The position numbers were made by a program, and so were the translations under genes. From Apostichopus japonicus (lineage: Eukaryota > Echinodermata > Holothuroidea > Aspidochirotida > Stichopodidae), in NCBI RefSeq assembly GCF_037975245.1, contig NC_092577.1:15638013-15702012 (forward strand): 64,000 bases of DNA, given 5' to 3'. The notes under the pieces are model-generated. The model did no database searches. It saw nothing but the letters and a program-made list of their open reading frames with translations, and was not told the DNA's origin. Below, piece after piece: positions 1,688 through 57,230 of this stretch; position 1 is the first letter of the stretch; every line of letters starts with the position of its first letter.

Positions 1688-3002
1688 AGACCGGAGCCGG
1701 AGCCGGAATTCCTTGAATGTAAAGGTGTCAAGACCGGGACTAGTTAGAATCGAACTCAAGTCCGATATCCCCTCTACCTTGTGGGCTAATGGGCACAGGG
1801 CCCACATTGCATACCCGGGCCAGCCTCGCACTTGTTGGAGGTGTGGGCTGGAAGGGCATGAGGCCAGGTTGTGCCCGAACAAGCGGTGTAGCCGCTGTTT
1901 ACAGGTTGGGCATACCCTGGCCGAGTGTAAAGGGGATATCGTTTGCAACTCGTGTGGGAAAACGGGCCATCTCGCCCGTTTATGCCCAGACCGCTCATAC
2001 GCCGCGAGAGTGGCTACGGGCGTGGTTGAAGCGGTCCCTGTCCCGGCCTCTGACACCGTACCACATGATGCTCCTGTCATCGCCCCAGTGTCCGACACTA
2101 GCGCCCCGATGGAGGCTTTGTTCCCCATTTCGTGTCCGACCTCTCCCCTGATCGAACTTGCCGAGACTGCCAGCCTGCCCACTGAGGCAGAGCAGGACAA
2201 AACGGCGGAGATGGTACTAGCGGAGCGGCGCAGGATGCCGCTTGTACTGGTTCACCGGTAGCTACGCCCGCTATCGGTGATACTAGTCGGGCCCCGAGTC
2301 AACCGGCCCAAGAGACATTAAGTGGCCCAGATTCTGACTCGCCAATGGAGGACTGCACTACAGCCTTATTAGTTGTGGCTAAGGAGTCCTCCGATTGGTT
2401 TGATGAGACAAAACAGGCCACTGATCTCATTGACTCGAGTGGCCCTTCCACCCTACCCGCAGCCGCTTCCGCTATACCGGACACGATGGTCGCTAGTGGA
2501 CCTCCTGTTCCTGACAGGGAGGTCCACTCGATCAAGGTTGACGAGGAGTTAAGAACTCTGCTCCCTCGTAAGAAAAGGGGGAATACTGTTAGGGGCTTGA
2601 AAAGACCCGTATTGGGAAAATTTCGCAGGTAATGCGCAAGCCTGTCGTCTGCTATCGGGACGGCGTACCCCGGATGAATTTTGGAATTAGTTAGTTGTTA
2701 TGTGTGGGGTGGGGGGTTTGTGTGGTCCTTACATAATATGGGTTGGGGGTTTTCTGTTTGTGGTTTGGTGTTGGCTTTTTGGGGCTGGTTTGTGGAGCTT
2801 TATTGTTTTGGTTCTGTTAGCCTTTGGGTCCGTGTCCTTTTCACGTCACGTTAAATGCTATATTTTATACATTTGTGGGGTTAGTGAGAGATTTCTGTTT
2901 GTGGGTTTTCAGTTGGGTTTTGGTGGTTGTTAAACAGACTGGGATTGTTTTTGGTTTTGTTGACCTTTGGTCCGTGTCCGTTTCTTTGCACGTAAAAAGC
3001 AC
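1688..3002 (+). mobile_element. Family A: ORF1-only half-LINE, 5'-truncated copy A1
   Basis: A GC-rich block in AT-rich DNA. It holds an ORF1-type zinc-knuckle protein followed directly by a GT-rich 3' region, with no endonuclease or reverse transcriptase. The 3' end reads CACGTAAAAAGCAC at 2989-3002. The same ORF1 C-terminus plus 3' region recurs at 36820-37522 (minus) and 56573-57230 (plus), so this is a family and not a chance deletion. Within the 3' region, roughly 2750-2860 and 2888-3002 are two diverged copies of one unit. The 5' end is cut inside ORF1. No target duplication could be matched. The architecture recalls mammalian HAL1 half-LINEs. Assignment to the Tx1-like group rests on the related ORF2 of family B. 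Confidence 0.8.
1713..2632 (+). pseudogene. LINE ORF1 protein with three CCHC zinc knuckles, frameshifted
   Basis: The first frame (1713-2261) carries three successive CX2CX4HX4C zinc knuckles encoded at about 1833-1985, preceded by the GQPRTCWRC context typical of Tx1-like LINE ORF1. Proteins of this kind bind the element RNA and form the retrotransposition particle with ORF2 protein. After about 2220 the frame breaks relative to the fuller copy at 52956-53320. The C-terminal part reopens at 2345-2632 and ends in a basic tail (PRKKRG, KRPVLGKFRR). The N-terminus is missing. The copy is dead, but the zinc-knuckle part is well preserved. Confidence 0.75.
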
Positions 3003-3273
3003 GAAGGCGATTTTCGCCGTTTATCTGAGGCTGCCTTTTTTGGACGCTGGTGTGCTGGGGAGGGGTTTTTCGTTTCGCTGCGTGCGGGTCGTCCTTTTGT
3101 AGGTTTTTGAATGTGTGAGTGGGGGGTGGTGGGCGTTTTGTCTCTGCAGGTCGGCGGGCGTATGTTTTTTGGGCTCGCTAGACCTGAGTTTCGTTTGTCA
3201 GAATGGGATGGTTCGGTAGTGCCGTTTGGCCGTGACGTTTTGTATCCCGCATGGCGGGTCACGTAAAAAGCAC
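3003..3273 (+). mobile_element. Family B LINE, 3' stub joined to the family A tail
   Basis: This matches the last ~270 bp of the full family B element (compare 45625-45897): the end of ORF2, the G-rich spacer and the terminal hairpin with CCCGC-ATG-GCGGG followed by TCACGTAAAAAGCAC. It starts at GAAGGCGATTTTCGCC, itself a small hairpin (GGCGA/TCGCC), exactly where the family A tail ends. This is either a 5'-truncated insertion at the A tail or a chimeric A-B transcript inserted as one. No target duplication separates them. Confidence 0.8.
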
Positions 3274-4794
3274 ACTAGTACTATTGTTCCACTTAGCCGA
3301 AAGTTTATGACTGCAATGATATATGTGGTTCTGTGTAGTCCAGCCTTACTTAATCCTAACGAGTAGCAATTTCATTGTGTTTGTGCTGGCCCTAGCCCTG
3401 CCAAAGCAGAGTGGGGGCAGGGGGGTATTAACAGTAGGCCCTATAGGGTAATATTGTGAAAGAGATGATACTTGTTATAACTACAGATGTACTGTTAAAA
3501 ACAAAATAATACTAGGGGCCTAGGGCCTATTATAAGAACAGGTGAACAACCAAATTGCCATGCTACTTGGAAGTTGGAACATCATCTAGGCTACCTTATT
3601 AATATTAGCTTAATACTAATAGGGTACATGACTCTTAATGTAGTAAAGGTCGGGTGAGAAGCAGAAGTAGCTTATCATTGGGTCAGCAGAGGTAGAAATA
3701 TACTATTTTTAAAATGTGAAAGTCAGGCACTAGACCTAGGAATTTGAATAAAATTAGGCTTAGCCTATATGCCTAATTTCATTCAAATTATATAGGTCTG
3801 CCATTGTTAATACAAACCCGTTAAACTAAAAGCCTTAATTATTCTTGCAGTCACAATAGACCACAGAAGTCAATGCAAAGGCCGCTTAGTTGAATCACCA
3901 TTGCTACAAAATCCTTCACTAAATTCATAAGTGTACCAGTATGAAGTAGTTGATCATGATGAACTAGGCTGGATGAAATTTAGTGAGAAACGTACATCAG
4001 ATGATTTATTGTCATATTCTGATGATAAGGAGGGAAGAATAATAAAATTATTGATGTTAGTCAAAGCTCTGTCATGTCCTTGATGTTATAAACAGATGCT
4101 GATCGATGTCTCCTAGTTTTAAAATGCATATAGGCCTAATTTACAGCAGTTAATAGTTTCTCCTACTTTTTGAAGCTTCCTTTTACTTGTTTTTGTTTTA
4201 TTTCATTCAGACTACTTTATTCTTCTCAAAGCGTCACCAAAAAAAATTAATATTAATGTGAAAATCAACGGACAATGCCATTGCCTAAAATATTCATAAA
4301 GTGCTGCAAACGTTGATGAATATTGACTACTTGCAAAAGTCTTACTTTTGGGCTACAAAATTCTTCTTTTGTCCTGTTTTATCGATGATTTTTATACTAT
4401 ACTTCAACTGTATCATAGACTTTCACCATAGTCCACTTGAAAGCATGCTCTGTTCAACAGGCCATTGTAGGCATCAGTATAGAAAACTGCCTTGAATCAT
4501 GATTTTGAATTTAAAGCCATTAGTCAAATATAGGCCCATTGATGGTAATGCCTAAATGTGATTTTATAAATGTTTTAGGCCTACATAGAAAGGTGTTACT
4601 GGATTATACCAAGTTACATTTAATCAGTCAGTAATACTGCTATCAACAGTCTTATCTTTAAATAGCTGGAAAACATATTTCGTACGCTCTTTATAATGAT
4701 GTTTTGAAATGAACTGTTTCTTTTTCATTTCAGATTTTCATAAACACTGCAGAACGACAGTCCTGAAAAGGAGCCAAACATACGCAAAGTAAGC
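3274..4794. other. Non-coding stretch
   Basis: AT-rich, with several taggcct words and no recognisable coding or structural feature. The frame at 4301-4495 shows no family resemblance. Confidence 0.5.
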
Positions 4795-7215
4795 ATGGCA
4801 GAAAATAGGTGGAATTTAAATTACCAATGCCCAAAATGTTTGGTCTTTTGGACAGGAAGGTTCAACAAACTCTTAGAACATTTACACCTCAGTCACTCTG
4901 ATGAGCAAAATTTTTGACTAAGATGCGGGATGTTAAAATTTATTCATTTAAGAAACATCTGAAAAGGGTGCATAATAATTGTCATTTGGATGGAACACTG
5001 GCTATGTCTGAGGAAGCAAACATGCAAATGCATTGCGATCATGAAGATACCAATTCTGAAACGCTAGAATATGAAGCAAACATAACAGATCAAAGTTCTC
5101 ACCTCCAAAATCAACTTGAAAACCAGTATCTATTTCCATATGCAATCCATGTTTTAAAATTGAGAGAAGTTCAAAAATTACCTCGGACAATTTTAGATGA
5201 AGTTGCTAGTGAATATAATGAACTCTTTGTTTGAAATCTTCTTGACATTGAAAATGCCATAAATATTGATTTACCTGCAATGGGTGTAAATATAAAAGAT
5301 TGTCCTAACATTCAGGGAGTATTAAAGGAAAACAAACTTCGTAAAGCCTTTGAACACATGGCTAGTGAGAATCATCAACTTCACTTTTGTAGACAACAGT
5401 TGAATTTGGGGGATCCCCTACAAATTTGTCTTGGATTTGAAGCATCTGGCAAGAAAGAAACATTCGAATATGTTTCTATTTTAGGTACTTTGCAGTCTAT
5501 GTTGGTAAATGCTGAAATTTTACCACATGTTATCAATGGACATTCATCTAGGGATCCAGATATTATGATGGACTATTGTGATGGAGCCAAATTTAAATGT
5601 AGTAGACTTTTTCAAATTCATTCAACTGCAATTCAAATTCACTTATATGTAAATGATTTTGAGGTTGTATATCCTCTAGGGACATACATAAAGTGAATGC
5701 TATGTACATGTTTATTGGAAATGTTGAACCAAAATATCGATCTTCTGTGAACCATATTCAATTAGTTTGGCTTGCAAAAGTTCATTAATGAAAAAATATG
5801 GCTTGGATACAGTTATCAAACCCCTCATGGATGATGTAAACATTCTAGAGCAACATGGAATTCAGGTAAATGTTGATGGCGTAGAACACAAATTTTATGG
5901 TTCAGTTTGTAGTGTCATAGCAGATAATTTAGCCAGACATTTCATAGGGGGATTTACAGAATCTTTCTCAGGTTTTCGTGTGTGCAGGTTTTGTATGTGC
6001 ACATCTGAAAGTCTCAGAAAAAATGAGCTTCACCAAAATCATATGGAAAGAACAGTCAATGCCCATAGGATTCATGTGAGCAGAGTGCAATATGACAGCG
6101 AAATGTCAACTGCGTATGGTGTGAAGCTGGATTCGCCTTTGAATTCCCTTCATTATTTTCATGTAATTGATGGGCTACCACCAGACTCATGACTTGTTTG
6201 AGGGCGTTTGTCCCAAAATTTTGAGCACTGTGATGACGTTATATGTGCAGACATTGAACAATCAATAAGAGGATTAATGATTTTGCATATGCAAGTTTTG
6301 ACAAATCAAACACCCTCTACTTTATCTTGGTCATGCTCTTCAGTTAAGGTAAGGCAAAAAGCCTGTCAAATGTGGTGCTTGATGCGCCCTTTTTTCTTGA
6401 TGTTTTCAAATGACATTGAAGAAAAAGATGAAAAGTGGCAACTTTTGCTATATATCATTGACATTGTGGACCTTGTGACTAGTCCTAGTGTGACCAAACA
6501 GTCATGTGTTTACCTCAATGGTGTGGTTTTCGATTGCTTAGAGCTGTTTTGTGAGCTATATCCAAATTCACATGTTACACCCAAAATGCATTTTATGACC
6601 CACTATGCCAAACAAATGATGCAATTGGACCTTTATCACATTTTTGGACTTTGAGGTTTGAATCAAAACATTGTTACTTCAAAGATATCTGAAGGGCTAC
6701 TAAAAATTGAAAAAATATAACATACCCTGGCAAAGAGACACCAAATATTTCAGAGTATCATTATGTCAACTTCAGATTTGGGCAAAGAGAACACTTTACC
6801 GGTACAAGGTGAAATGATCAAGATTGGTGAATTATCACCTGAAATGACACCATTCATTTTGAAAATTACTGGCGAATGTGACGAGGTATATGTCTCAATG
6901 TCTGTACATTTCAATGGGGTGAGATATGATTCTGGAGGCATGTGTTATCCTGAATGTAGTTGAGAGAATGTGCCAATTTGGCTTAATGAAACTGTGTTTT
7001 TTCACAATTGCAAGTTTAACTTCATTATTCATGAAATGGATACTGAGTGCTTTGATAGGAATTGTCATGCATATGTTGTTGTAGAGTCAAACAGAAAAGT
7101 GATCATTCAGAGTAGGACTTTTCTTGATCACAATGCTTTACCAATGTACAAAGTTCGTACTAAAAGCTATGTAGTAATGAAGTACAAGTTGCATCAAGAG
7201 TATGCTGGCCTGTAA
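4795..7215 (+). pseudogene. Zinc-finger, transposase-like large protein (broken)
   Basis: A start codon at 4795 opens a C2H2-type finger (CPKC ... H-x3-H), followed by a stop near 4916 and a second, frame-shifted finger-like segment (KKHLKRVHNN). The protein continues through 5280-5696, 5767-6192, 6208-6654, 6763-6963 and 6970-7215, separated by stops and frameshifts. Recognisable blocks are a CRFC cysteine motif at about 5990, and a late block with PKMHFMTHYAKQM near 6580-6625. From memory, large proteins of this plan (N-terminal fingers, HFCRFC, LPKHHFMIHY) are repetitive in fish and invertebrates and are transposon-like. I cannot name the superfamily; a distant resemblance to tnp2/EnSpm-type transposases is only a guess. 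No introns are apparent, and at least five lesions make it non-functional. Confidence 0.6.
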
Positions 7216-17454: not shown

Positions 17455-17515
17455 TTGCTGCATGGGCTGAAAAAGTTCTGGTCTGCACTTACAAATCCAT
17501 GTTTGATGCACTTTA
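17455..17515 (+). repeat. Duplicate scrap of the exon at 12834-12992
   Basis: GGGCTGAAAAAGTTCTGGTC and following bases repeat 12905-12955 with scattered differences and encode AEKVLVCTYKSMFDAL against AENVLVCTCKSMLDAL upstream. It ends at a stop. This indicates an old tandem or ectopic duplication of part of the gene. Confidence 0.6.
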
Positions 17516-18359: not shown

Positions 18360-19494
18360 AATGCTGATATTCGTTTTGTTTCGCCCATCTTGTGGTACCC
18401 GGGCGCGGTGTATCCAATTCCGCGTCGCGTCCTGGTGCGGTTGGAGAGAGCGATATTTTCATTTATTTGGTCGGGTGGTACAGAGCTTGTCAAAAGGGCG
18501 GTAATGTACCAAAAACTGGAGAAGGGTGGGTTAGGGGTGGTTCATCTGGGAAGTAAATTGACCTTTTTGTTATTGAAGCAGTTGTTTGTAGCGGTAACTG
18601 ACCCAGGGTTGCCTTGTTCATATTTTGTACGTTTTGGGGGCGGTTTGCACCTGCGTCGATGGGTGGTGCGTGTCATCTGCTCCGTTCTGATTGAGTTGCC
18701 CCCTGTTGACCTGTCACAGCCGGCCCTCGTTCACTGTTCGTTGCGGGATTAGGCCTTGAATGCAACTTTTGTCCAGGGACGTCATTCTGCCGAAGTATGG
18801 CGTTCGGTGCATTCAAGGCTGAATGGTTGCAGGCTCCGTGATCTCGCATGGAGAGTTGCACAGGGTGCCTTGGTGACCAACGTAAAGAGATATTATTGGC
18901 GATTGGGTGATGGACTGTGCCCTAGGGCCGGCTGTGACAGCTTAAAGAGTACTGCTCATGTTTTTTTGGCATTCTTGATTTGTAGTAAACTTATGGGAGT
19001 GGTTCCAGACCTGGACCGACCGTGTTACGGGAGACCGTTCATGGTCGGTAGGGCAGGGCTTTATTTTATATGGGGTAGACCCTCCAGTTTGTTCGGTAGC
19101 TGTGTTGCACCGCATCATTTTTGTTTGCTCTATTGTAAAAAAACATGTTTGGCGGAATAGATGTAATTTGGTTTTTAGGTGCAAATTTGGCAGTTGGCAG
19201 TCCTGGAGGCGGTGAAGTCTGACATTCGCCTTCAAATTGAAGGCGATTTTCGCCGTTTATCTGGGGCTGCCTTTTTTGGACGCTGGTGTGCTGGGGAGGG
19301 GTTTTTCGTCGTCCTTTTGTAGGTTTTTGAAGGTTTGAGTGGGGGGGGGGTGGGCGTTTTGTCTCTGCAGGTCGGCGGGCGTATGTTTTTTTGGCTCGCT
19401 AGACCTGAGTTTCGTTTGTCACAATGGGATGGTTCGATAGTGCCGTTTGGCCGTGACGTTTTGTATCCCGCATGGCGGGTCACGTAAAAAGCAC
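18360..19494 (+). mobile_element. Family B LINE, 5'-truncated copy (ORF2 C-terminus and 3' end)
   Basis: Starts inside ORF2 at the segment encoding RFVSPILWYPGAVYPIPRRV and runs to the terminal hairpin and CACGTAAAAAGCAC at 19481-19494. The zf-RVT-like cysteine/histidine region (DGLCPRAGCDSL...HVF) is present near 18911-18966. Compared with 42718-45896 it lacks about 54 bp near 18663 and carries frameshifts. It abuts the gypsy relic on its right. Confidence 0.85.
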
Positions 19495-19559
19495 ATGGGA
19501 CTGGTTGTTACTGTTAGTTTCAATATCCACTGGTCTGGTCTGGTCTGATTAGTGGGAGT

Positions 19560-21087
19560 ATTTTCCATTTGATTTTGTTGAGTAGTATAGGATTCCTTTC
19601 TTTATTTTGCTTTTTCCCAGACTTTATCACCTGTGCTCATGCGCACAACATCCCCTGGGTTTAAAGGTTGCATATCTCTGGCACCTTGATCAAAATAAAA
19701 CTTCTGAGTTGATTTTGGTCCAGCTGTTCTTTGACAGAGCTAGGCTCCTGTGTTTTGGGTTTTAACAAGTGCTCTGTCATAGGGTGTACTGACCTACTTC
19801 TTCTGCCCATCAATAGTTGAGCAGGGGATGGTAGTCCCTCCATTTGGTGTATTTCTGTAGTCCAGAAAACTGAAATAGGAGCCTTGCCCTGAATCTTTAG
19901 CTTTTTTTCATTAGTCTCTTGACTGTTTGCACAGTCTTTTCTGCTTTAGCATTGGATTGGGGGTACTTGGGTGAACTAGTTATGTGCTTGAACCCATACT
20001 GTTTTGCCAAATCTTGGAAGGCCCCTGAGGAATATTGAGTCCCATTATCTGACATTACCACCTCTGGTATGCCATATCTAGCAAAATGTTGCTTACAGAT
20101 TTGAATGACAGATTCACTTCTCAGATTACGCAGCTTGTTTACTTCAAAGAAGTTAGAGTAATAGTCTACTAAGACAACATAGTACTCTTGATTGAACTGA
20201 AAAGAAATCTGTGGCAATTTTCTGCCATGGCAAGCTTGGTTTAGCATGACCTTTCATTGACTCTTTTGGATTTTGGTTACGATAGCGATTTCACAAATTT
20301 CGCACTTGGCAACAACATCTTCAATTTGTCTAGCCATGCCTGGGCAAAAGAATATGTCACGGGCTACTTTTTTGGATTTTTCTACCCCTTGATGACTGTG
20401 GTGAATTTTTTCAATGATTAGTCTTCTCATACATGTAGGTATGATCAACTTGTTATTTTTGAACAGCAGTCCTTGTTCTACTGTTAATTCATCTTGCATT
20501 TCCCAGTATGACTTGATGGGGCCTGGCACCTCCAGTTTACTAGTGGGCCAGGTACCACTGAGTACATGATCTCTAACAGCCCGTAACGTGACATCTGAAT
20601 TTGTTGCTGCCATTGCCTCCTGTAGCCTTTCATTTGACATAGGTACATTATCAACATTAATATCAATTTCACTTACTTGCAGAACATCATTTGAATTGGA
20701 ATTTGTTTCAGTATTGACGTCATGATTTCTGCTCAGTGCATCTGCGATGTACATCTCAGTACCTTTTTTGTACTTCACCACAAGTGCATACTTTTGTAGC
20801 TGAAGTAACATTCTTTGCAGTCGTGGTGGCGTTTGGGCCAGTGTTTTTTTTTCAAAATATTTTCTCAAGGTTTGTGGTCTGATTCCACCCTAAACTCTTT
20901 GCCAAACACATATTGATGGAATCTTTGGCATCCAAACAATACAGCAGCCAGCTCTTTCTTGTGCGTACTTCTTTTGACTACTAGTGAAAGCCTTCGACGC
21001 ATAGGCGATAAGGTGGCCATCTTGTAACACGACACCCCTTACCCCAGTGCTTGAAGCATGAACACTTAATGTGACAGGTTTTGTCAC
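19560..21087 (-). pseudogene. pol: gypsy RNase H and integrase, broken
   Basis: RNase H: LSVHASSTGVRGVVLQDG and the YASKAF segment at 21087-20890. Integrase: an HHCC-type zinc region (HHSHQGVEKS, CPGM, CEIC) in 20868-20254, then the DDE core with VMSDNGTQY and a YPQSNAKAEK segment in 20247-19897. The C-terminal SPAQLLMGRR block sits at about 19830. Stops separate these parts. Confidence 0.85.
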
Positions 21088-21345
21088 ATCATAGTATGAT
21101 AATACTGGTGCTTTTGATATGAGTGACTTTAGTCGTTCAAAACTCTTCTGTTGACCCTCGGCCCAAACCCACTCTTGCTCTTTTTTGCAGCAGTTTGCGC
21201 AACGGCTCAGATTCTGTTGTCCAAATTTGGTATGAATTTGCCTACGTAATTTATCATGCCCAGAAACTGCTGAAGCCCCTTTTTGTTGGTAGGCGACTCC
21301 AACTCATTGATTGCCTCAATTTTCCTTGGACCTGGTTTCACCCCG

Positions 21346-22121
21346 TCAGCTGTAAGAATATGGCCTATGTATCTTACCTCGTTTTGCCGGAACTGACATT
21401 TGGCGGGATTTAGTCACATTTTTCTCTTTGGCGCGCTTTAACAAACATTCCAAACGAAAATTATGCTCTGCTAGGTTTTCTCCCCACACCAAAATATCAT
21501 CCATAATTATCTCAACTCCCTCAATGTTCTCGAACATATGGGACATTGTCCTTTGGAATACTTCCGGTGCTGATTTTATACCGAAAGGCAAGCGTTTATA
21601 TCTATATCGGCCATAGGGTGTCTGAAAGGTGCATAACTTGCGACTTTCTTTATCTATTCAATACCCAGAAATTGGCGTCCAGGGTGCTGAATACCTTGGC
21701 ATTTGGCATGCGAGCGACGACCTCTATCGTTTTTATAGGGTAATGCTCCCGCTCGATCGCCTCGTTCAGGTCCTTCGGGTCCAGGCAGATGCGTACTTTC
21801 TCCCGGCCCGGTTTGACTACGGTGACCATACTGGAGACCCACTGGCTTGGCTCCTCTAGTTCCTCCATTCGTTTCAGCTCTGCCTTTATTTTGCCCCTCT
21901 GGAACACGGAACAGTGCTTCTGGAACACGGCGCGGCGCGTGTATGACAGGTTGGGCCTCAGGAGATGTACGGATGTGATGCTCCTCCTCAAAACATCCTA
22001 CGCCATGGAACACCTCCTTGTATTTGTCTTCGATCTTGCTTGGCTTGACTGCATCCTCTTGAATCTGGATTTTGTCTACGCGGCGGATAAGCTCTAACTC
22101 TTTACAGGTGTCCAGGCCCAA
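21346..22121 (-). pseudogene. pol: gypsy reverse transcriptase, frameshifted
   Basis: Blocks in order include RICLDPKDLNEAI, MPFGIKSAPEVFQ and IIMDDILVWG (the xxDD catalytic site), spread over two to three frames (22121-21654, 21991-21650, 21591-21346). RNA-dependent DNA polymerase of the family; not functional here. Confidence 0.85.
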
Positions 22122-22445: not shown

Positions 22446-22467
22446 CATGGTGTAATCACTTTTTCAT

Positions 22468-36809: not shown

Positions 36810-37532
36810 GAATATAACTGTGCTTTTTTACGTGCAGAGAAACGGACACGGACCAAAGGTCAACAAAACAAAAAACAATCCCAGTCTGTTTAACAACCAC
36901 CAAAAACCCAACTGAAAACCCACAAACAGAAATCTCTCACTAACCCAGAAATGTATAAAATATAGCGTTTAACGTGACGTGAAAAGGACACGGACCCAAA
37001 GGCTAACAGAACCAAAACAATAAAGCTCCACAAACCAGCCCCAAAAAGCCAACACCAAACCACAAACAGAAAACCCCCAACCCATATTATGTAAGGACCA
37101 CACAAACCCCCCACCCCACACATAACAACTAACTAACTCCAAAATTCATCCGGGGTACGCCGTCCCGATAGCAGACGACAGGCTTGCGCATTACCTGCGA
37201 AATTTTCCCAATACGGGTCTTTTCAAGCCCCTAACAGTATTCCCCCTTTTCTTACGAGGGAGCAGAGTTCTTAACTCCTCGTCAACCTTGATCGAGTGGA
37301 CCTCCCTGTCAGGAACAGGAGGTCCACTAGCGACCATCGTGTCCGGTATAGCGGAAGCGGCTGCGGGTAGGGTGGAAGGGCCACTCGAGTCAATGAGATC
37401 AGTGGCCTGTTTTGTCTCATCAAACCAATCGGAGGACTCCTTAGCCACAACTAATAAGGCTGTAGTGCAGTCCTCCATTGGCGAGTCAGAATCTGGGCCA
37501 CTTAATGTCTCTTGGGGCGGTTGAATATAACT
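36810..37532 (-). mobile_element. Family A half-LINE copy with perfect 10-bp target duplication
   Basis: Element 36820-37522 on the minus strand, flanked by GAATATAACT at 36810-36819 and 37523-37532. It contains the ORF1 C-terminus (37478-37191 minus, ending KRPVLGKFRR) and the duplicated GT-rich 3' region, and ends in TAAAAAAGCAC. It is 5'-truncated within ORF1. Truncation plus flanking duplication shows insertion by target-primed reverse transcription, although the element encodes no polymerase. Confidence 0.9.
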
Positions 37533-39609: not shown

Positions 39610-42600
39610 ATGGATTGCAATGCGGGAAAGTAGCTGAATTCGTCCAAAAACAGGTGTTTTGCTCACTGCGCTGATGTTTTAGAAGATATTAAACCTTTTA
39701 CAACAGCAAGGTGGATCACATTCTTGAAAAGTGTGGACATTTGGAAGGATTTGGTCGGAAATCAAGCCGATATAGCAACAGCTTTTTTGCGAGAGCATGG
39801 GAGTACGCGTGTGTGTTAAGCTTGCCAATTCCAGAATTTGGTGGATGTCATAACACTTGTTATCGGTATTTTACCGACTCATCGAAGCAGAAGAGAGGAA
39901 AAATAAGCAAAGAGAAGCAACTACTAGCTGCCAAATCAAGTCATACATCAGGTACGTTCTTTATTTTTGTCATATAAACATGGACATTTACGGATAATTT
40001 TCACTCACGCACTCACTGCTCACACTTAGGCTAGGGTGAAATGCACTGGCTGTATGGTGTGTTCAACTGTGTTGGATTGGTGGTGCATGGTAGCCTATGG
40101 CAATGCTAATGTCATAAAATTTAAAAAAATACTGTCATAATCACCCAATATAAATTAGCAGACCTATATATCCCACTTCTTTATGTGTTTTGGTGTAAAA
40201 TATTGTTAGGTTAGATCCTTTTATTGGGTCATAAAAATCATGTTGCATAAATTATATAAAGCCAATGCATGATCATGCATGGCAGACCTATGCCCAATTT
40301 TTCAGAAGTTTTGCTGTAAATATTAATTGATAAATTTAGTGGTACATTGAAATTATTATAATATAATTCTACTTAGACTTGGTTTTCTGACGGTCTGTGT
40401 CTAAAAAGCTGTCGCACGGCAGACCTATGCCCGATTTTTCAGGTGTTTTGGTGTACATATTTTTATTATTTTCATTGCTACATTGAAATATCCATCATCT
40501 CCCTATACACAGAATACAAAATGAAAAATTCACACATATTTTTCTTTCTGTCTTTTGTGCCTTTACAGAATTGGAGCCTTCAACTTCAAGTATTGATACT
40601 GGTGATGAAGCAACACGTCCACCCCGAGGGTGTTACGATCTAGCTCAGCTGTTGCGGGTGTAACGAAGGAGCCATCTGTCCCTTCCCACATCCTGCCAAA
40701 GATTTGCATCTTCTGTTGCCGCTATGAAATATCATATACAGACTCTCAGAGGAGAAAAAGAAAAGAACAGTTGATGCTTAGTGAACAGCCTGATGGAGGC
40801 AAGCTAGCAGCAGCTGCTAAAGACAAGAACGTGACTGTGTGGCAATCGAATTGCGTTATCATAGAAGTTGCTACAGGAGCTACACAGGGTACCAAACCAG
40901 GAAGTATGTTGAGCCAAAAGAACAGCTCTATGCCACAGCATTTGATGCTTTTTGCAAGTACTACATCGAACAAGATTCTTCGAGCGAAACAGATTTACAG
41001 AATGACATCACTAAGGCGGTATTTTGGCAAAGCTGTGAAAGATGTTGAAATGCCTCCAACTACAGAACTTACAGACTGAAGCAGCGTCTCAAACGAAGGT
41101 TTCCACAGCTGTGCTTTCTTCAGCCCAAGAAGAGGTGTTCCAGTGAGATGGTTTATGTTGAGACACTATCGGCCGAAGGTCCCGAAGCCACCACCACACC
41201 AACTGAGATACTGACAACACAGATGCTGAGGAGGAAGAAGTACCACCCAGAAAGCGACCAAAGGGCATACCAAACAGTGGACAATCCAAGCCTCAAATGT
41301 CGTCACTAAGGGATCGCTACTCTACTGCACTGGATTTAAAAGAAGAAATCATGCAAGCCATGAAAAAAAAAAAACAATCTTCCATGGCCTCCAACATCTG
41401 GCGATTTAACCCTTGATGCAGCGCGCAAGATAGTCCCCACCAAGCTCTACAATTTTATAGCATGGATTGTGCTTGCTACGTGATCCGCCATGCGGGATAC
41501 AAAACTTCACGGCCAAACGGGACGACCGAACCATCCCATTCTGAAAAACGAAACCCAGGTCAAGCGAGCCAAAAAAGCAACATACGCCCGCCGACCTGCA
41601 GCGACAAAAACGTCCCCCACAGAAACATTCAAAAAACTACAAAATAGCATGGATTGTTGGTGTGTCCGATGAGACAACAGATGAGCAGAAAGTAAAGATT
41701 CAAGATGCAGCAGATCGTCGCATCCTTGCCATTGGACAGGACATCATCAAAGGGAAGGAAGATGATGCCCAAGCGTTCATCACTGTTAATGGCGATTCGT
41801 CATCTTAGTGGATCAGCCCAGCTCATTGGTTTACTCAATGGTTTTGGACATTCTGTGTCACACACTAATGTCTTGGAGCACGATACAGCAATAGGGCAGC
41901 AGGAAATTGATAGGCAATGTTCTTCCATCCAGTCTCAACAAGTCTATCTACACCACCCTTGTGTGGGACAACAAAGATTTTGGAGAATGCACCCTATCCG
42001 GTAAAGGCACTACCTACAACACCAACGGAGGAATAGCTGTCCAACATGTGAAGTTAGATTCTACATCTTCAGCGTCTCAACCGCGTCAACATATCAGAAA
42101 GTCAAGGAAGCGATCCCTGCCAGCACCTGCTTCAGCGATGGGTGAGATTTGGTGGTTTGAAGAAGTCATCCCCTCAGGCATTTGATGACAGTGTACAGCT
42201 GGAGGTTGAGCATTTTATTTTCTGAGGCCCGCCTTCTTCCCTCCTGGACTGGATTCAAGCAGCTGCTTTCTTCCAGCATTCCACCTAAAGCAACCATTGC
42301 ATACTTGCCAGTTGTAGATGCTAGCCCAACGGATTTAAATACTGTCAACACTGTACTTCACAGAAGCCTGGAAATAGCCGATCAGTTGGAACTTCCATCA
42401 ATTGTGGTAGTAGTAGACCAAGCGATTTATTGTAAAGCTCAGACAATCAGATGGCAGACTCCAATTTTCCAGGAGAGGATAGTTATTCGTCTTGGAGCTT
42501 TCCATACCACAATGACAGTATTAGCATGCATTGGGAAGATTTCAAGATGTCCTGATTGAGGCAGGTGTAGTGGCAACAGGGTCAGTGACTGGTGTGATGA

Positions 42601-42717
42601 ATGGCCACAACTACAATCGAAGTGTTCGCTGTCATAAGCTTATGGCTGAAGCACTGCACCGCCTTCGATGGCAAAGTTTCTTGAGTACTCTGGAGGAACA
42701 GAAGAGACAACAGTTCA
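39610..42717 (+). pseudogene. PIN/CXC multidomain family, longest copy, 5' portion
   Basis: Start codon at 39610. Exon 1 (to 39951, GTACGT donor) encodes AHCADVLEDIKPFTTARW and CHNTCYRYFTDSSKQKRG. Exon 2 starts at 40569 and encodes ICIFCCRYE and YHRSCYRSY, a second zinc-binding cluster like that at 36.1 kb. Next come YRLKQRLKRRFPQLCF (about 41060-41110), KLYNFIAW split by a LINE stub, IRHLSGSAQLIGLLNGFG, YTTLVWDNKDFGECTLSG, VVVVDQAIYCKAQ and the VMNGHNYNRSVRCHKL block (42530-42717). Frameshifts or stops occur at about 39631, 39790, 40635, 40830, 41807 and 42535. The coding line stops at QQF and resumes in frame after a family B insertion. Confidence 0.7.
41457..41657 (-). mobile_element. Family B LINE 3' stub with 14-bp target duplication
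   Basis: ATAGCATGGATTGT occurs at 41457-41470 and 41644-41657. The 173 bp between are the reverse complement of the last part of family B (hairpin CCCGC/GCGGG, G-rich spacer). The tail varies slightly (CACGTAGCAAGC). Removing the stub rejoins host codons for LYNFIAW and GVSDETTD, so the insertion hit a coding exon. A classic severely 5'-truncated LINE insertion. Confidence 0.9.
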
Positions 42718-45700
42718 CTTCCTTCACTGCCTTCCTTTGTTCCTGGTAGTGCTCCATGTGTCATGGTCGGAGACTTTAACTGTGTCCCAGACTCGGGTCT
42801 TCTGTGTCTGCTAGTCCCGACGCTGGGATCACAGAATTGGACAGATTCACTTCCGTACACCTTTTAGCCGATGTCTTGAGGCGTATACACCCGTGTAGTA
42901 CGGTGTACACGTGGGTGAGGCCTAACGGAGAAGATGCCTCCAGGATAGATCGAGTGTATGCGCCCGTAAGTTTTAAATTTTCGGGTTGCGAGACGCTCAG
43001 CTGTCCGCTCTCTGACCATGACACTGTGGTAGCACGTTTTGTTTTGCCTTCCATTTTCCCGATCGGGCGGGGCCTATGGAAGCTTAACTGTCGGATTCTT
43101 GGCGAGGCAGAATTCCGCCAAGGTTTCGAGACCAGGTACAAAGGATGGCAAACATTGAAGCCGGCCTTTGCTTGTACATCCCAGTGGTGGGATAATATCA
43201 AGTTGCGCATCAAACGCTACGCAATTCAGTATTGCGTGACCCGCGCACGGCGTCGAAGAGAAAAATTCTCGAAGCTGTGCGCGGAGGTGAAGTTTGGCGA
43301 CCCTTCGGCAGTCATCGCTTTGCAGACGTATCTCGATGAAAAGTACCACGGTGCCCGCGTCAGGGCCCGTGTCGAAGCGGTGGAAGCCGAGGAGCGCCCT
43401 TCACTGAGGTTTTACCAGTCCGTTAGCTCATCGGCGGGTGACAGACGCGTCCCGTCTGTGCGCGCTACCGATGGGACCGTGGTCAGTGACCCTCACGGCA
43501 TTGTCCGCGTATATAAAGAGTATTATTCGAGTTTGTTTACGCGTGGCAATGTCGACTTGTCGGCACAGTCTGATTTATTGAGGGGAATCTCAAAAACCGT
43601 TCCCCACGATGTCAATGATATTTTGGGGGGCGGAATAACCACTGTTGAGCTTTGGAAGGCGCTTTCGAAGATGAAGAATGGCAAGTCCCCGGGTTCGGAC
43701 GGGCTTCCGAGGGAGTTCTACCGAACCTTCTGGGCAATAATAGGACCCGACATCAGAGCCGTCTTCGGGGACGCCTTCCAAAACGGACTGTTAAACCAAA
43801 GTCAACGTCTGGGCATGATTACTTTGCTGCCAAAGTCTGGGGACCCCTTGGATCCCCATAACAAGCGTCCGATCACCTTGCTAAATGTGGACTACAAGTT
43901 GCTGGCTAAGGCTTTGTGCAACCGCCTTGCACTGGCTATGCCGCATCTTGTTGGTGATCTCCATCCAGACTTGTGCAGTGAAGGGTCATTGCATCCAGCA
44001 GAACTTGTGGTTGATGCGCGACTTGACCGACTTTGTTATTGACCGTGATCTGCCATGTACATTGGTGTCTCTGGACCAGCAGAAGGCCTTTCACATGGTG
44101 GATCGCGGTTTTTTAATGAATGTATTGGAGACGTTTCAGTTGCACCCAAATTTTCGTAAATGGATTTCTGTTTTGTATGAAGAAAGTTTCAGTTCTGTTA
44201 TCGTAAATGGGTTTTGTTCGGGGGTTTTTAACGTGGAGAGGGGGGTGCGCCAGGGGTGCCCTCTGTCTCCATTACTTTATGTTTTGTTTAGCGAGTCCCT
44301 CTCTCGTCTTTTGGAAAGGGACTCCAAACTTGTTCCATTCGTTGTGCCAGGGGGTGCCAAAGTGAAATGCGCTCAATATGCAGATGACGTGACATGTATT
44401 GTTTCGAGTCTCGACTCCTTTCGCGCACTCTCGCAGGATCTATCTATTTTTGAGAGAGCTACCGGGGCGAAGTTGAATCCAGAAAAGACAAAGGGCCTTC
44501 GTCTTGGTAGCTGGAGATACAGAGACTTACCATTCGGTGCGTCGTGGTCGGATCAGAATATCAAAATTAATGGTATATGGTTCGGCTACGATGCACCTTG
44601 TGATGTCACCTGGAACGAGAGGGCTGAGGTATTTCAGAGCAGACTCGAAACCTTTGGCACCCGCTGGCTTTCGATCTTGGGGAAAGTCACTGTCATTAAT
44701 CGTTTCGTTTCGCCCATCTTGTGGTACCCTGGCGCGGTGTACCCTATTCCGCGTCGCGTCCTGGTACGGTTGGAGAGGGCGATTTTTTCATTCATATGGT
44801 CTGGTGGTACAGAGCTTGTCAAGAGGGCGGTATTGTACCAAAAACTGGAGAAGGGGGGGGACTAGGGGTGGTTCATCTGGGAAGTAAATTGACCTTTTTG
44901 TTATTTAAGCAGTTGTTTGTAGCGGTAACTGACCCAGGGTTGCCTTGTTCATATTTTGTACGTTTTTGGGGCGGTTTGCACCTGCGTCGATGGGTCCCGG
45001 CGCTGTTTAGCAACAGAGAACCGCATAGTAGTACTCCAAACAGGGTGGTGCGTGTCATCTGCTCCGCTCTGATTGAGTTGCCCCCTGTTGACCTGTCACA
45101 GCCGGCCCTCGTTCACAGTTTGTTGAGGGATAAGGCCTTGAATGCAACTTTTGTCCAGGGACGTCATTCTGCCGAAGTATGGCGTTCGGTGCATTCAAGG
45201 CTGAATGGTTGCAGGCTCCGTGATCTTGCATGGAGAGTTGCACACGGTGCCTTGGTGACCAACCTAAAAAGATATCATTGGCGATTGGGTGATGGACTGT
45301 GCCCTAGGACCGGCTGTGACAGCTTAGAGAGTACTGCTCATGTTTTTTGGCATTGTTACTTTGTAGTAAACTTATGGGAGTGGTTCCAGACCTGGACCGA
45401 CCGTGTTACGGGAGACCGTTCATGGTCGGTAGGGCAGGGCTTTATTTTATATGGGGTAGACCCTCCACTTTGTTCGGTAGCTGTGTTGCACCGCATCATA
45501 TTTGTTTGCTCTATTGTAAAAAAACATGTTTGGCGGAATAGGTGTAATTTGGTTTTTAGGGGGAAATTTGCCAGTTGGCAGGCAGTCCTGGAGGCGGTGA
45601 AGTCCGACATTCGCCTTCAGATTGAAGGCGATTTTCGCCGTTTATCTGGGGCTGCCTTTTTTGGACGCTGGTGTGCTGGGGAGGGGTTTTTCGTTTCGCT

Positions 45701-45903
45701 GCGTGCGGGTCGTCCTTCTGTACGTTTTTGAATGTTTCAGTGGGGGGGGGGGGGTTGGGCGTTTTGTCTGCAGGTCGGCGGGCGTATGTTTTTTTGGCTC
45801 GCTAGACCTTAGTTTCGTTTGTCACAATGGGATGGTTCGGTAGTGCCGTTTGGCCGTGACGTTTTGTATCCCGCATGGCGGGTCACGTAAAAAGCACAGT
45901 TCA
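42711..45903 (+). mobile_element. Family B Tx1-like LINE (42718-45896) with 7-bp target duplication
   Basis: CAGTTCA at 42711-42717 and 45897-45903 flanks the element, and host codons continue in frame across it (RQQF then KKVVSSLQASYP). The 5' end is truncated within the endonuclease domain. The 3' end has the nested hairpin CGTGA...TCACG enclosing CCCGC/GCGGG, then TAAAAAGCA. The ORF2 layout, zf-RVT-like region and SLDQQKAF motif place it in or near the L1/Tx1 clade. Confidence 0.9.
42740..45731 (+). pseudogene. LINE ORF2: endonuclease (partial), reverse transcriptase, zinc-finger C-terminus
   Basis: Encodes the C-terminal APE-type endonuclease (VMVGDFNCVPD, SRIDRVYAP, SDHDTVVARF), then RT motifs KNGKSPGSDGLPREFYRTFW, NKRPITLLNVDYKLLAKAL, SLDQQKAF, RGVRQGCPLSPLLYVLF and QYADDV (YADD at 44377-44388), and GAKLNPEKTKGLRLG. 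The C-terminal region has a zf-RVT-type pattern (CPRTGCDSLESTAHVFWHC). Frames switch near 43960 and 44855; otherwise the copy is well preserved, suggesting a fairly recent insertion. ORF2 proteins nick DNA and copy element RNA at the nick. Confidence 0.85.
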
Positions 45904-49149: not shown

Positions 49150-52100
49150 TGCTTTTTACGTGACCCGCCATGCGGGATATAAAACGTCACGGCCAAACGG
49201 CACTACCGAACCATCCCATTCTGAAAAACGAAACTCAGGTCAAGCGAGCCAATAGAACATACGTCCGCCGACCTGCAGAGACAAAACGCCCAACCCCCAC
49301 TCAAACATTCAAAAAACCACAAGGACGACCAGCACGGAGCGAAACGAAAAACCCCTCCCCAGCACACCACCGTCCAAAAAAGGTAGCCCCAGATAAACGG
49401 CGAAAATCGCCTTCAATCTGAAGGCGAATGTCAGACTGCCTGCCAACTGGCAAATTTCCCCCTAAAAACCACATCACATCTATTCCGCCAAACATGTCTT
49501 TTTTTTCACAACAGAGCAAACAAAAATAATGCGGTGCAACACAGCAACCGAACAAACTGGAGGGTCTACCCCATATAAAATAAAGCCCTGTCATACCGAC
49601 CATGAACGGTCTCCCGTAACACGGTCGGTCTAGGTCTGGACCCACTCCCATAAGTTGACTACAAAGCAACAATGCCAAAAACATGGGCAGTACTCTCTAA
49701 ACTGTCACAGCCGGTCCCTGGGCACAGTCCATCACCCAATCGCCAATGATATCTTTATACCAAGGCAAGGTCACCAAGGCACCGTGTGCAACTCTCCATG
49801 CAAGATCACGGAGCCCGCCACCATTCAGCCTTAAATGCACCGAACGCCATACTTCGGCAGAATGACGTCCCTGTACCACCCGACCAAATAAATTGAAAAT
49901 ATCGCTCTCTCCAACCGCACAAGGACACCCGGGTACCACAAGATGGGCGAAACAAAACGATTAATTACGGTGACTTTCCCTAGGATCGAAAGCCAGCGGG
50001 TGCCAAAGGTTTCGAGAGCCTGCTCTCAAGTTCCTCAACCCTCTCGTTCCAGGTTACATCACAAGGTGCATCGCAGCCGAACCATATACCATTAATTTTC
50101 ATATTTTCATCCGACCACGATGCACCGAATGGCAAGTCTGTGTATCTCCAGCTACCAAGGCGAAGGCCCTTTGTCTTTTCCGGATTCAACTTCGCCCCGG
50201 TAGCTCTCTCAAAGATAGATAAATCCTGCGAGAGGGCACGAAAGGAGCCCAGACTCGAAATAACACACGTGACGTCATCTGAATATTGAACGCACTTCAC
50301 TTTGGCACCCCCTGGCACAACGAATGGAACAAGTCTTGAGTCCCTTTCCAAAAGACGAGACAGGGACTCGCTAAACAAAACATAAAGTAATGGAGACAGA
50401 GGGCACCCCTGGCGCACCCCCCTCTCCACGTTAAAAACCTCCGAACAAAACCCATTTACGATAACAGAACTGAAACTTTCCTGATACAAAACAGAAATCC
50501 ATCTACGAAAAACCGGGTGCAACTAAAACGTCTCCAATACATTCATTAAAAATACCCGATCCACCATTTAAACGGCCTTCTGCTGGTCCAGAGACACCAA
50601 TGCACATGGCAGATCTCGTTCAATAACAAAGTCGGTCAAGTCGCGCATCAACCACAAGTTCTGCTGGATGCAATGACCCTTCACTGCACAAATCTGGAGA
50701 TCACCCACAAGATGCGGCATAGCCAGTGCAAGGCGGTTGCACAAAGCCTTAGCCAGCAACCTGTAGTCTAGATTTAACAAGGTGATCGGACGCTTGTTAT
50801 GAGGGTCCAAGGGGTCCCCAGACTTGGGCAGCAAAGTAATCATGCCCAGACGTTGACTTTGGTTTAACAGTCCGTTTGGAAGGCGTCGGCTCTGAGGTCG
50901 GGTCCTATTAATGCCCAGAAGGTTCGGTAGAACTCCCTCGGAAGCCCATCCGAACCCGGGGACTTGCCATTCTTCATCTTCGAAAGCGCCTTCCAAAGCT
51001 CAACAGTGGTTATTCCGCCCCCCCCCCCCAAATATCATTGACATCGTGGGGAACAGTTTTTGAGATTCCCATCAATAAATCGGCCTGTGCCGACAAGTCG
51101 ACACTGCCACGCGTAAACAAACTCAAATAATGATCCTTGTATACGCGGACAATGCCGTGAGGGTCACTAACCACGGTCCCATCAGTAGCGCGCACACATG
51201 GGACGCGTCTGTCACCCGCCGATGAGCTTACGGACTGGTAAAACCTCAGTGAAGGGCGTTCCTCGGCTTCCACCGCTTCGACACGGGCCCTGACGCGGGC
51301 AACGTGGTACTTTTCATCGAGATAGGTCTGCAAAGCGATGACAGCCGAAGGGTCGCCAAACTTCACCTCCGCGCACAGCTTCGAAAAATGTTCTCTTCGA
51401 CGCCGTGCGAGGGTCACGCAATACTGAATTGCGAAGCGTTTGATGCGCAACTTGACATCATCCCACCATTGGGATGTAGGGGCAAAGGCCGGCTTCAAGG
51501 TTTGCCAACATTGGCGGAACTCTTCCTCGCCAAGTATCTGACAGTTAAGCTTCCATAGGCCCTGCCCGGTCGGGAAAATGGAAGGCAAAACAAACCGTGC
51601 TACAACGGTGTCATGCAACCCGAAAATTAAAAACTAGCGGGCGCATACACTCGATCTATCCTGGAGACATCGGCTAAAAGGTGTGCCGAAGTGAACCCGT
51701 CCAGTTCTGTGACCCCAGAGTCAGGACAAGCAGACACAGAAGCCCCGGGCGAGTCTGGGACACAGTCAAAGTCTCCGACCATGACACATGATGCACTACC
51801 AGGAACAAAGGAAGGCAGCGTGTCAAAAACATCTCGTCTAGCAGACCGATTGGGAGCATACACAGTACAAAGGGAGATATTATCCTGTGCATACTTGAAT
51901 AGAATGCAAACCAATCGGCCCTCGTGATCCGTCTCCACCCTAGTGGCGCAACCCGCCCGACGAGGTGACAGAAGGATGACAGTGCCACAGGATGAAGACG
52001 AACCAAACGAAGCATGCAGCCCACCACCCCACTCATAAGCCCACAGAGGGACATCTTCCAAAATGTGTGTTTCTTGCAGGCAAACGCAGTCGACCTCCAT

Positions 52101-52190
52101 TGAAATACAATATTGGAAAATGCGACTGCGCTTGCGATGATCCCTCATGCCATTCACGTTGAAAGTGGCAACTGAAAATGTATGGGCCAT
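49150..52190 (-). mobile_element. Family B LINE, ORF2 from its start codon to the 3' tail, internally deleted
   Basis: Minus strand. The ORF2 start codon is at 52190 (MAHTFSVATFNVNGM), followed by endonuclease motifs CLQETH and VMVGDFDCVPD, with about 20 residues missing before SRIDRVYAP. RT motifs follow: GVRQGCPLSPLLYVLF and QYSDDV, where the usual YADD has become YSDD (about 50273-50284). A deletion of roughly 400 bp joins the IFNLFGR segment to VQGRHSAEVW near 49880. The zf-RVT region and hairpin tail follow, and TGCTTTTTACGTG at 49150 is the reversed terminus. Several frameshifts. It is the only copy retaining the ORF2 start. Confidence 0.85.
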
Positions 52191-52199
52191 GAGAGGGCA

Positions 52200-52955
52200 A
52201 TGGGGCAAAACTACGCCGACGACGATTCTGTAAGCTTCAATCGTGCTCTAGACGACATATCGTCGTCCGAGTCGTCACTTGAAGCCGACCTTTTTAGAGA
52301 GGGTTCTCCCCCATCTCGTCGTACCAGCTCGTCCCAGTGGCACGTGGCATGTTTTGGATGTTCGGTTCACCTCCCTCTGGACATGTCTGGCGGACACTGG
52401 GGCGTTTTGGGAAAGTGACCGGCTACGAGGAGCCGGAATTCCTTGAATGTAAGGGTGTCAAGACCGGGACTAGACGAGTTAAGAGTTGAACTCAAGTCCG
52501 ATATCCCCTCTACCTTGTGGGCTAATGGGCACAGGGCCCACATTGCATACCTGGGCCAGCCTCGCACTTGTTGGAGGTGTGGGCTAGAAGGGCATGAGGC
52601 CAGGTTGTGCCAGAACAAGCGGTGTAGCCGCTTTTTACAGGTTGGGCATACCCTGGCAGAGTGTAAAGGGGATATCGTTTGCAACTCGTGTGGGAAAACG
52701 GGCCATCTCGCCCGTTTATGCCCAGACCGCTCATACGCCGCCAGAGTGGCTACGGGCGTGGTTGAAGCTGTCCCGGCCTCTGACACCGTATCACATGATG
52801 CTCCTGTCATCGCCCCAGTGTCCGACACTAGCGCCCCGGTGGAGGCTTTGTTCCCCCTTTCGTGTCCGACCTCTCCCCTGATCGAACTTGTCGAGACTGC
52901 CAGCCTGCCCACTGAGGCAGAGCAGGACAAGATGGCGGAGATGGTACTAGCTCCT
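52200..52955 (+). pseudogene. LINE ORF1 N-terminal two-thirds, head-to-head with ORF2
   Basis: Start codon at 52200 (MGQNYADDDSVSFNRALDD). One in-frame TGA at 52416 separates an acidic N-terminal region from the zinc-knuckle region (LRVELKSDIPSTLWANG and three CX2CX4HX4C knuckles), same frame throughout. It ends after TEAEQDKMAEMVLA where sequence switches strand. It lies 9 bp from the ORF2 start codon at 52190 on the opposite strand. This is the only copy showing the ORF1 N-terminus. Confidence 0.75.
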
Positions 52956-53320
52956 CGTCGTCATTGATCGAGTGGACCTCCCTGTCAGGAACAGGAGGTC
53001 CACTAGCGACCATCGTGTCCGGTATAGCGGAAGCGGCTGCGGGTAGAGTGGAAGGGCCACTCGAGTCAATGAGATCAGTGGCCCGTTTCGTCTCAAACCA
53101 ATGGGAGGACTCCTTAGCCACAACTAATACGGCTGTAGTGCAGTCCTCCATTGGCGAGTCAGAATCTGGGCCACTTAATGTCTCTTGGGCCGGTTGACTC
53201 GGGGCCCGACTAGTATCACCGATAGCGGGCGTAGCTACCGGTGAACCAGTACAAGCGGCATCCTGCTCCGCATGCCACTCCTCTAATACCGTTTCCGCCG
53301 TTTTGTCCTGCTCCGCCTCA
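52956..53320 (-). pseudogene. LINE ORF1 C-terminal part, inverted relative to its N-terminal part
   Basis: Minus strand reads EAEQDKTAETVLEEWHAEQD, then SPMEDCTTAVLVVAKESS and PVPDREVHSI, continuous in frame and fuller than the copy at 1713-2632. It overlaps the plus-strand N-terminal part by about 35 bp of ORF1 sequence (the EAEQDK segment), so both strands carry that stretch as an inverted duplication. Confidence 0.75.
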
Positions 53321-53339
53321 ATGTCAATTGACAGTGGAA

Positions 53340-56329: not shown

Positions 56330-56520
56330 TCCTTTTGTAGTTTTTTTTAATGTTTCTGCTGGGGGGGGGCGTTGGGCGTTTTTTGTCGCTGCAGGTCGGC
56401 GGGCGTATGTTGTGTTTTGGCTCGCTTGACCTGAGTTTGGTTTTTCAGAATGGGATGGTTCGGTAGTGCCGTTTGGCCGTGACGTTTTGTATCCCGCATG
56501 GCGGATCACGTAAAAAGCAC
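56330..56520 (+). mobile_element. Family B LINE 3' stub
   Basis: Last ~190 bp of family B: G-rich spacer, hairpin and CACGTAAAAAGCAC ending at 56520. Flanks ACATTCCTTTT (left) and ACATTCGTTTT (right, starting at 56519) differ at one position and may be the target duplication. Confidence 0.75.
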
Positions 56521-56572
56521 ATTCGTTTTCACAAACTATTACTGTTCCATTGGACACGGTTTTCCATAACAT

Positions 56573-57230
56573 GACTCGCCAATGGAGGACTGCACTACAG
56601 CCTTAGTAGTTGCGGCTAAAGAGTCCTCCGATTGGTTTGATGAGACGAAACAGGCCACTGATCTCAATTAACTCGAGCGGCCCTTCCACCCTGCCCGCAG
56701 TCGCTTCCGCTATACCGGACACGATGGTCGCTAGTGGACCTCCTGTTCCTGACAGGGAGGTCCACTCGATCAAAGTTGACGAGGAGCTAAGAACTCTGCT
56801 AGCTCGTATGAAAAGGGGGAACACTGCCAGGGGCCTGAAAAGACCCGTACTGGGAAACTTCGCAGGTAATGCGCAAGCCTGTCGTCTATCGGTACGGCGT
56901 ACCCCGGATGAATATTGGAGTGAGTTGTTAGGTGTGGGGGGGGGGGGTTGTGTGGTTGTTACGTAATATGGGTTGGGGGTTCTGTTTGTGGTTTGGAGTT
57001 GACTTTTTGGGGATGGGTTGTAGAGCTTTGTTGTTTTGGTTCTGTTGGCCTTTTGGTCCGTGTCCTTTTCACGTTACGTTGAACGCTGCAATGTATACGT
57101 TTGTGGGTTGGTGGGAGGTTTCTGTTTGTGGGTTTTCGGTTGGGTTTTGGTGGTTGTTTAACAGACTGGGATTGTTTTTGGTTTTGTTGACCTTTGGTCC
57201 GTGTCCGTTTTCTTTGCACGTAAAAAGCAC
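56573..57230 (+). mobile_element. Family A half-LINE copy, 5'-truncated
   Basis: Starts in ORF1 at the SPMEDCTT codons and runs through the ORF1 C-terminus (a stop near 56670 breaks it) and the duplicated 3' region to CACGTAAAAAGCAC at 57217-57230. Only a short CACGGT match (left about 56555, right 57228) could be a target duplication; this is weak. Confidence 0.85.

Follow-up and report, generated by a model that had tools for sequence, protein, structure and literature searches.

The stretch of Apostichopus japonicus DNA analysed here, 64,000 nucleotides of contig NC_092577.1 (positions 15,638,013 to 15,702,012, forward strand, RefSeq assembly GCF_037975245.1), is referred to below as the window. 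It carries three copies of a derivative of a long interspersed nuclear element (LINE), which we call family A, together with copies of a LINE that also has a second open reading frame (ORF2), family B (Table 1). As proposed in an earlier sequence-only reading, the first open reading frame (ORF1) of each A copy runs directly into a GT-rich 3' region, and no ORF2 is present. That reading also placed copies 2 and 3 correctly, whereas copy 1 starts at about 1699 and not at 1688. The three copies are 90-99% identical to one another over their shared parts, and ORF1 is broken in all of them, by truncation in every case and by a frameshift as well in copies 1 and 3. The 5'-truncated copy 2 has the 10-bp target-site duplication (TSD) ascribed to it, AGTTATATTC on both sides, and its tail is the 14-mer CACGTAAAAAGCAC plus one extra A; at copy 3 a TSD was looked for and none was found. 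The B copies in the window close with the same end sequence as A, one of them slightly shortened. Considered with its copies elsewhere in the genome, family A is well supported as a real, young and mobile LINE that encodes ORF1 only.

The genome searched comprises 671.6 Mb in 35 contigs, the window lying on contig C17. With the 3' region of copy 1 as query, the best 40 of 528 first-look candidates (a rough figure) were scored and are 96-100% identical to the query. In all 40 the 3' region follows directly on the end of ORF1, so that an ORF2 lying between the two in most copies, which would have spoken against a half-LINE, was not encountered; 35 of them stand in the exact-junction listing, which covers 100 of 154 places, and five were read from fetched sequence, in one of which the joint carries a small deletion. 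A 26-mer across this one common junction, with up to two mismatches allowed, occurs at those 154 genomic places, and its reversed control at none. Full-length A is about 1.86 kb long and holds a single CCHC-type ORF1 of about 430 amino acids, without ORF2. Ten of the 16 A loci fetched (loci carry L numbers below) are full length, and an eleventh, L006, is a mosaic. ORF1 is open throughout in four of the ten (L005, L007, L010, L012), which provides the intact copies that the sequence-only reading had suggested seeking; in L005 a stretch of about 20 residues is unlike the other copies, as after two compensating frameshifts.

Mobility without a polymerase of its own, also part of that reading, is borne out by TSDs of at least 9 bp at 9 of 18 A copies (the 16 fetched loci plus window copies 2 and 3) and by the presence of 5'-truncated copies among the A loci. 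TSDs of the same length flank five of ten B copies and five of eight copies of a third family, C, described below. The A insertions lie inside contigs with TSDs, unlike an addition to chromosome ends without TSD.

The A copies in L003, L005, L008-L013 and L015 start with a short GTTCA-type repeat in variable number, and B and some C elements start with GTTGGC-type motifs. Within the A 3' region, the terminal segment is present a second time as a diverged internal duplicate (73-76%; window 2744-2984). The A junctions are strongly clustered: among the 100 listed, 70 lie on C17, 69 of these in one 10-Mb block, and 22 on C16. Clusters were located at C17:15.4-25.7 Mb, C16:26-31 Mb, C11:13-14.6 Mb and C7:16.4-17.7 Mb, those on C7 and C11 coming from the listing of the 14-nt tail, and the clustered copies possibly occupy pericentromeric or non-recombining DNA.

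Of special interest for the origin of A is L008, where the end of another ORF2 (44% identical to that of B at the amino acid level) and an A-like 3' region lie upstream of an A copy. This upstream element belongs to family C, which is about 5.2 kb long; 40 of its 42 listed matches are 94-100% identical, and its joint between ORF2 and the 3' region is found at 118 genomic places (control 0). The copy numbers of A are therefore like those of a complete relative (154 A junctions vs 118 C joints). One of the eight C loci fetched, L028, has both frames open, with an ORF1 of 426 amino acids whose stop overlaps the start of an ORF2 of 1144 amino acids; the former protein is 87% identical to that of A, the latter 52.5% identical to that of B. 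Aligned with C, A corresponds to the 5' part over positions 1-1496 (about 88-91% identity) and to the 3' end over positions 1496-1864 (about 75-78%). Between these two matched ends C has 3.4 kb, nearly all of ORF2, that A lacks; in A the ORF1 stop is followed immediately by the final ~57 nt of ORF2 and then by the 3' untranslated region (UTR). Judged by these comparisons, the closest ORF2-bearing relative of A is family C, along with an older type, D, and not family B.

The D type came to light among 40 tails (L035-L074), which are the exact 14-mer places listed first, on contigs C1-C11, and not a random sample. Their closest family is B in 25 cases, A in nine and C in four, and two resemble none; at least five of the nine closest to A are of the D type, with ORF2 sequence upstream of an A-like 3' UTR. 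This 3' UTR is mostly 84-90% identical to that of A, nearer than that of C. A search with one D locus listed 19 places that match its ORF2 part, including itself, the other 18 at 85-94% identity. Seven longer D loci were read. Three (L075-L077) are 5'-truncated, 86-93% identical to C over the aligned ORF2/3' stretch and 88-89% identical to A in the 3' UTR. The other four (L078-L081), picked mainly for an A-like base variant, are rearranged and older, and each keeps a piece of the ORF2 end before a D-like 3' region.

Family B, a sister LINE, has a diverged ORF1 of its own. Its full-length form, about 4.97 kb, has an ORF1 of 391 amino acids and an overlapping ORF2 frame of 1130 amino acids, and both are open in two of ten B loci (L019, L022). 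Whether B copies carry an ORF1 of their own had been posed as a check, and the protein they encode is 40% identical to that of A over 370 aligned positions, about 52% over the first 243. B was rejected as parent of A: it possesses an ORF1, and when its full-length form was compared with the A loci by blastn the sole matches were a stretch of about 60 bp at the 5' end, in L006, and an unconnected piece of B in L015. Among solved structures, B ORF2 is matched best by the LINE-1 ORF2 protein (E 1e-70), with R2 proteins well behind (E 1e-16). Pfam detected zf-CCHC in ORF1 of A, B and C, and Exo_endo_phos and RVT_1 in ORF2 of B and C; this pairing of an apurinic/apyrimidinic-type endonuclease with a reverse transcriptase is common to many clades and not diagnostic of Tx1, the lineage first proposed. 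A fixed target site is typical of many Tx1 families. By eye, with no statistic run, no motif was common to 19 TSDs, and one place in B was hit three times.

A, B and C all end in exactly CACGTAAAAAGCAC, found at 829 genomic places against 2 for the reversed control. The common terminus claimed for A and B stands as far as this primary sequence is concerned, which is solid, and with 829 exact copies the tail is not rare; its absence from most copies would have told against the claim. The ORF2s of B and C share only about half their residues and, by blastn, the two 3' UTRs are unalike apart from this end; that the exact 3' end is nonetheless conserved suggests that it matters to the enzyme. The three families also begin with a common 5' stem-loop, GTGGAG...CTCCAC or a wobble form of it, which folds slightly better than shuffled sequences (z -1.0 to -2.9, 7 sequences). 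In the four loci compared with Rfam, neither an HDV (hepatitis delta virus)-like ribozyme nor a known RNA was found at the element 5' ends, and two chance-level hits lay elsewhere. The element end GCAC overlaps the TSD by at least 2 nt in 7 of 19 TSD-bearing copies (4 of 5 in B; p about 1e-4 for 7/19 against 1/16, a rough null), a hint that the RNA end base-pairs with the nicked target.

The 5' half of A shows a different relation to C than the rest of the element. Compared with four full-length C copies, A shows fixed differences at a rate of 1-3 per 100 bp over roughly the first 900 positions and of 2-16 beyond, and pairwise identity is 95-97% at 130-880, 88-90% at 880-1490 and 85-87% (gaps left out) at 1500-1870. 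The first 125 codons of ORF1 contain no fixed A-C difference; since silent sites are unchanged too, protein constraint alone does not suffice to explain this low divergence. The 5' end of C is itself A-like in two copies (L029, L032) and B-like in two others (L028, L030), the latter with 33 differences from A in the first 100 bp. The mosaic L006 does not differ from the A majority over 1200-1800, and its 5' part (130-880) is 6-7% from both A and C; no TSD was found when it was looked for, so this locus may be a rearrangement. On such comparisons the A, B and C families seem to recombine. We read the mosaics as exchange, probably by template switching, between RNAs copied in one complex, which supports C as the helper of A.

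The abundance of B has to be set against this. The shared 3' end might have A moved mainly by B, the link to C being one of ancestry only: the terminal 14 nt are common to A and B, the B loci L019 and L022 have both frames open, and B seems the most numerous of the three families, with 918 first-look candidates to the 528 of A (rough figures) and with 25 of the 40 sampled tails closest to it, when nine are closest to A (at least five of them of the D type), four to C and two to none. Yet, tail apart, the similarity of A to B detected by blastn is at most about 60 bp at the 5' end, and the 95-97% identity of A and C over the 5' 0.9 kb points to RNAs of A and C meeting in one complex. We regard a main role of B as unlikely.

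Our preferred reading makes family A a half-LINE comparable to HAL1: it would derive from a LINE of the L1 group and be copied in trans by C, by B or by both. That it arose by internal deletion of ORF2 and is mobilised in trans by sister LINEs we consider very probable. A LINE of the C/D lineage would have lost about 3.4 kb, everything between the ORF1 stop and the final ~57 nt of ORF2, and so founded a family in which both ends of that lineage and its ORF1 gene survive. Sister LINEs with the same end, most likely C and possibly B, would provide an ORF2 protein that takes up the A RNA and copies it into new sites by target-primed reverse transcription, with the shared 3' end acting as recognition signal and C presumably supplying the enzyme. 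Of the HAL1-like relation first proposed, the ORF1-only anatomy and the ends shared with ORF2-bearing LINEs are retained, and the pairing with B is replaced, C and D being nearer.

What ORF1 does in A is a separate matter. Fixed A-C differences in ORF1 number 25 nonsynonymous (N) and 17 synonymous (S), with 6 multi-hit codons, and those within A 55 N (three of them stops) and 24 S. Two fixed A-C indels lie in ORF1, of 9 and 24 bp and both multiples of three, and those of the 3' region (1, 7, 3, 1, 17, 19 and 1 bp) mostly are not; there is no fixed premature stop. These comparisons lend weak support to retained coding. There is an appreciable, if lesser, chance that A is a passive internal-deletion derivative in which ORF1 is a leftover without a role: the frame is broken in six of the ten full-length copies and the N/S ratio is not significantly shifted from that among copies, although the indel pattern and the lack of a fixed stop are suggestive of the opposite. 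At the other extreme, the ORF1 protein of A would also serve B or C, as in the mutual relation that the sequence-only reading entertained. Uninterrupted ORF1s do occur in A, and its junction is found as often (154 copies) as the joint of C (118), but copies of B and of C exist with an uninterrupted ORF1 of their own. Because they carry it, nothing indicates that A supplies ORF1 to either, and we consider such cooperation very improbable.

Several results weigh against the trans-mobilised half-LINE as we propose it. The evidence for which reverse transcriptase copies A is indirect. The N/S comparison of fixed A-C differences with those within A fails to demonstrate purifying selection on A ORF1 (Fisher p 0.31). 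A CGTG...CACG pairing, the second half of the terminus claimed for A and B, can be drawn at the 3' ends, but in both of two runs shuffled sequences folded as well as the last ~50 nt (z +0.34 and -0.19 for A and -0.41 for B; +0.39 for A, -0.43 for C and -0.54 for B), so this hairpin is unproven; the 40 sampled tails, picked by exact match to its 3' arm, are unsuited to a covariation analysis. The step between the two halves of A is unclean, since at 1100-1300 the fixed differences fall back to 2-3 per 100 bp, and both L006 and the A/C mosaic could stem from gene conversion between genomic copies and not from template switching. Eight of 12 D-like loci (L049, L052, L059, L061, L063, L075-L077), spread over several contigs, have one 3' flank in common, and L079 and L080 share another. 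Because of these flanks, many D copies are probably copies of single old insertions, multiplied inside other repeats. The D type is a thin witness; it shows that LINEs with both ORF2 and a 3' UTR almost of the A type existed, not that they were abundant.

A fuller scenario is tentative and, to our minds, somewhat doubtful. Family A would have outlived its D-type parent, kept a working ORF1 for its own RNA and moved to the machinery of C and B through the common 3' end. Template switching with C would renew its 5' half, with the promoter and the RNA-binding domains of ORF1, so that A, B and C would together be a single recombining pool in which 5' modules are exchanged around the common 3' end.

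The window also bears on where these elements insert. Position 4699/4700 of B is occupied twice by A (window 3003; L083 at 2349, oriented) and once by C (L082 at 5561), within one base, beside the inverted repeat CGCCTTC-AGATT-GAAGGCG, and is likely an insertion hot spot; in this comparison the window has no B part upstream of A, and L082 has about 40 bp unassigned between B and C. A template-jump chimera or composite at the window join 3002/3003 was set aside, as C in L082 and A in L083 stand at the same join with B on both sides. The B tail at 3003-3274 is not part of A, and copy 1 ends inside B at B position 4699. Elsewhere in the window, a head-to-head pair of A ORF1 fragments lies directly upstream of a minus-strand B, an order unexpected under simple twin priming. 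At 20254-22121 and 63393-63767, both on the minus strand, the translations show by eye frames like Ty3-type pol fragments and a Pif1-type helicase.

Table 1. Copies and fragments of families A and B in the 64,000-nt window.
Feature	Position	Strand	Remarks
Half-LINE A copy 1	1699..3002	+	5'-truncated (A positions 547-1862): ORF1 fragment, 3' region, tail; ORF1 frameshift near 2225
A copy 1 ORF1 remnant, CCHC knuckles	1743..2629	+	Residues 133-430 of intact protein, in two frames (tblastn)
GT-rich A 3' region ending CACGTAAAAAGCAC	2640..3002	+	Genome-search query
B element 3' end (B positions 4699-4976)	3003..3274	+	Adjoins A copy 1; B read as insertion target
LINE B-related	18368..19495	+	5'-truncated; about 90% to copy at 42.7 kb
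Copy 2 TSD, 3' side	36810..36819	.	10-bp direct repeat AGTTATATTC
Half-LINE A copy 2	36820..37522	-	5'-truncated, TSD AGTTATATTC
Copy 2 TSD, 5' side	37523..37532	.	10-bp direct repeat AGTTATATTC
LINE B 3' tail fragment	41468..41644	-	
LINE B copy	42700..45898	+	5'-truncated, frame-broken ORF2, tail present
LINE B copy	49150..52190	-	ORF2 frame-broken and internally deleted; by eye extends slightly upstream into B ORF1 end
A ORF1 fragment, residues 91-292	52365..52952	+	Head to head with fragment at 52948
A ORF1 fragment, residues 276-404	52948..53331	-	
LINE B 3' tail fragment	56330..56524	+	48 bp upstream of A copy 3
Half-LINE A copy 3	56573..57230	+	5'-truncated, ORF1 remnant frameshifted

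To our knowledge, the known ORF1-only LINEs are mainly those derived from mammalian L1 (HAL1), with HeT-A of Drosophila as a case of another form. Among the records listed in a literature search for such elements, none surfaced beyond these two; Repbase lay outside this search, and A may already be named there. Family A would be a further case, with a CCHC-type ORF1, a short fixed 3' end, little-diverged copies, recent autonomous relatives with both frames open, and mosaic junctions. HAL1 uses the ORF2 of its parent L1 in trans. It is described as a non-autonomous, ORF1p-only L1 derivative of mammals with several origins (PMC5753468). Family A is likewise an ORF1-only LINE derivative, but it is not HAL1 proper, which is of mammalian L1 origin and has a poly(A) tail: A and its relatives have a CCHC zinc-knuckle ORF1 and a fixed end other than poly(A), CACGTAAAAAGCAC, common to several LINE families, and the 5' half of A looks exchanged with an autonomous relative.

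HeT-A of Drosophila is reported as a Gag-only non-LTR (long terminal repeat) element beside the pol-bearing TAHRE, with a similar Gag, and the pol-bearing TART (PMC5537684). Like it, A needs a foreign polymerase; HeT-A joins chromosome ends, whereas A inserts internally with TSDs. The short internally deleted elements (SIDEs), such as Persaeus from the CR1 element Zenon, are non-LTR elements that lost internal sequence and multiplied alongside a partner LINE, and are described as rare (PMC6740152). A is also an internally deleted non-LTR element spread beside its relatives. It differs in keeping a complete ORF1, about 430 codons that are open in four of ten full-length copies, whereas Persaeus is not known to have one. 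In stringent-type pairs of LINEs and short interspersed nuclear elements (SINEs), a common 3' tail is described as recognised by the LINE protein (PMC4176376). A shares its 3' tail with LINEs B and C, and recognition would be by analogy; unlike a SINE, A is a protein-coding LINE derivative. Among these systems A stands out by an unusually clear set of recent relatives, and it would allow direct tests of ORF1 retention after polymerase loss, of the 3' end needs of a LINE enzyme and of promoter trading among LINEs.

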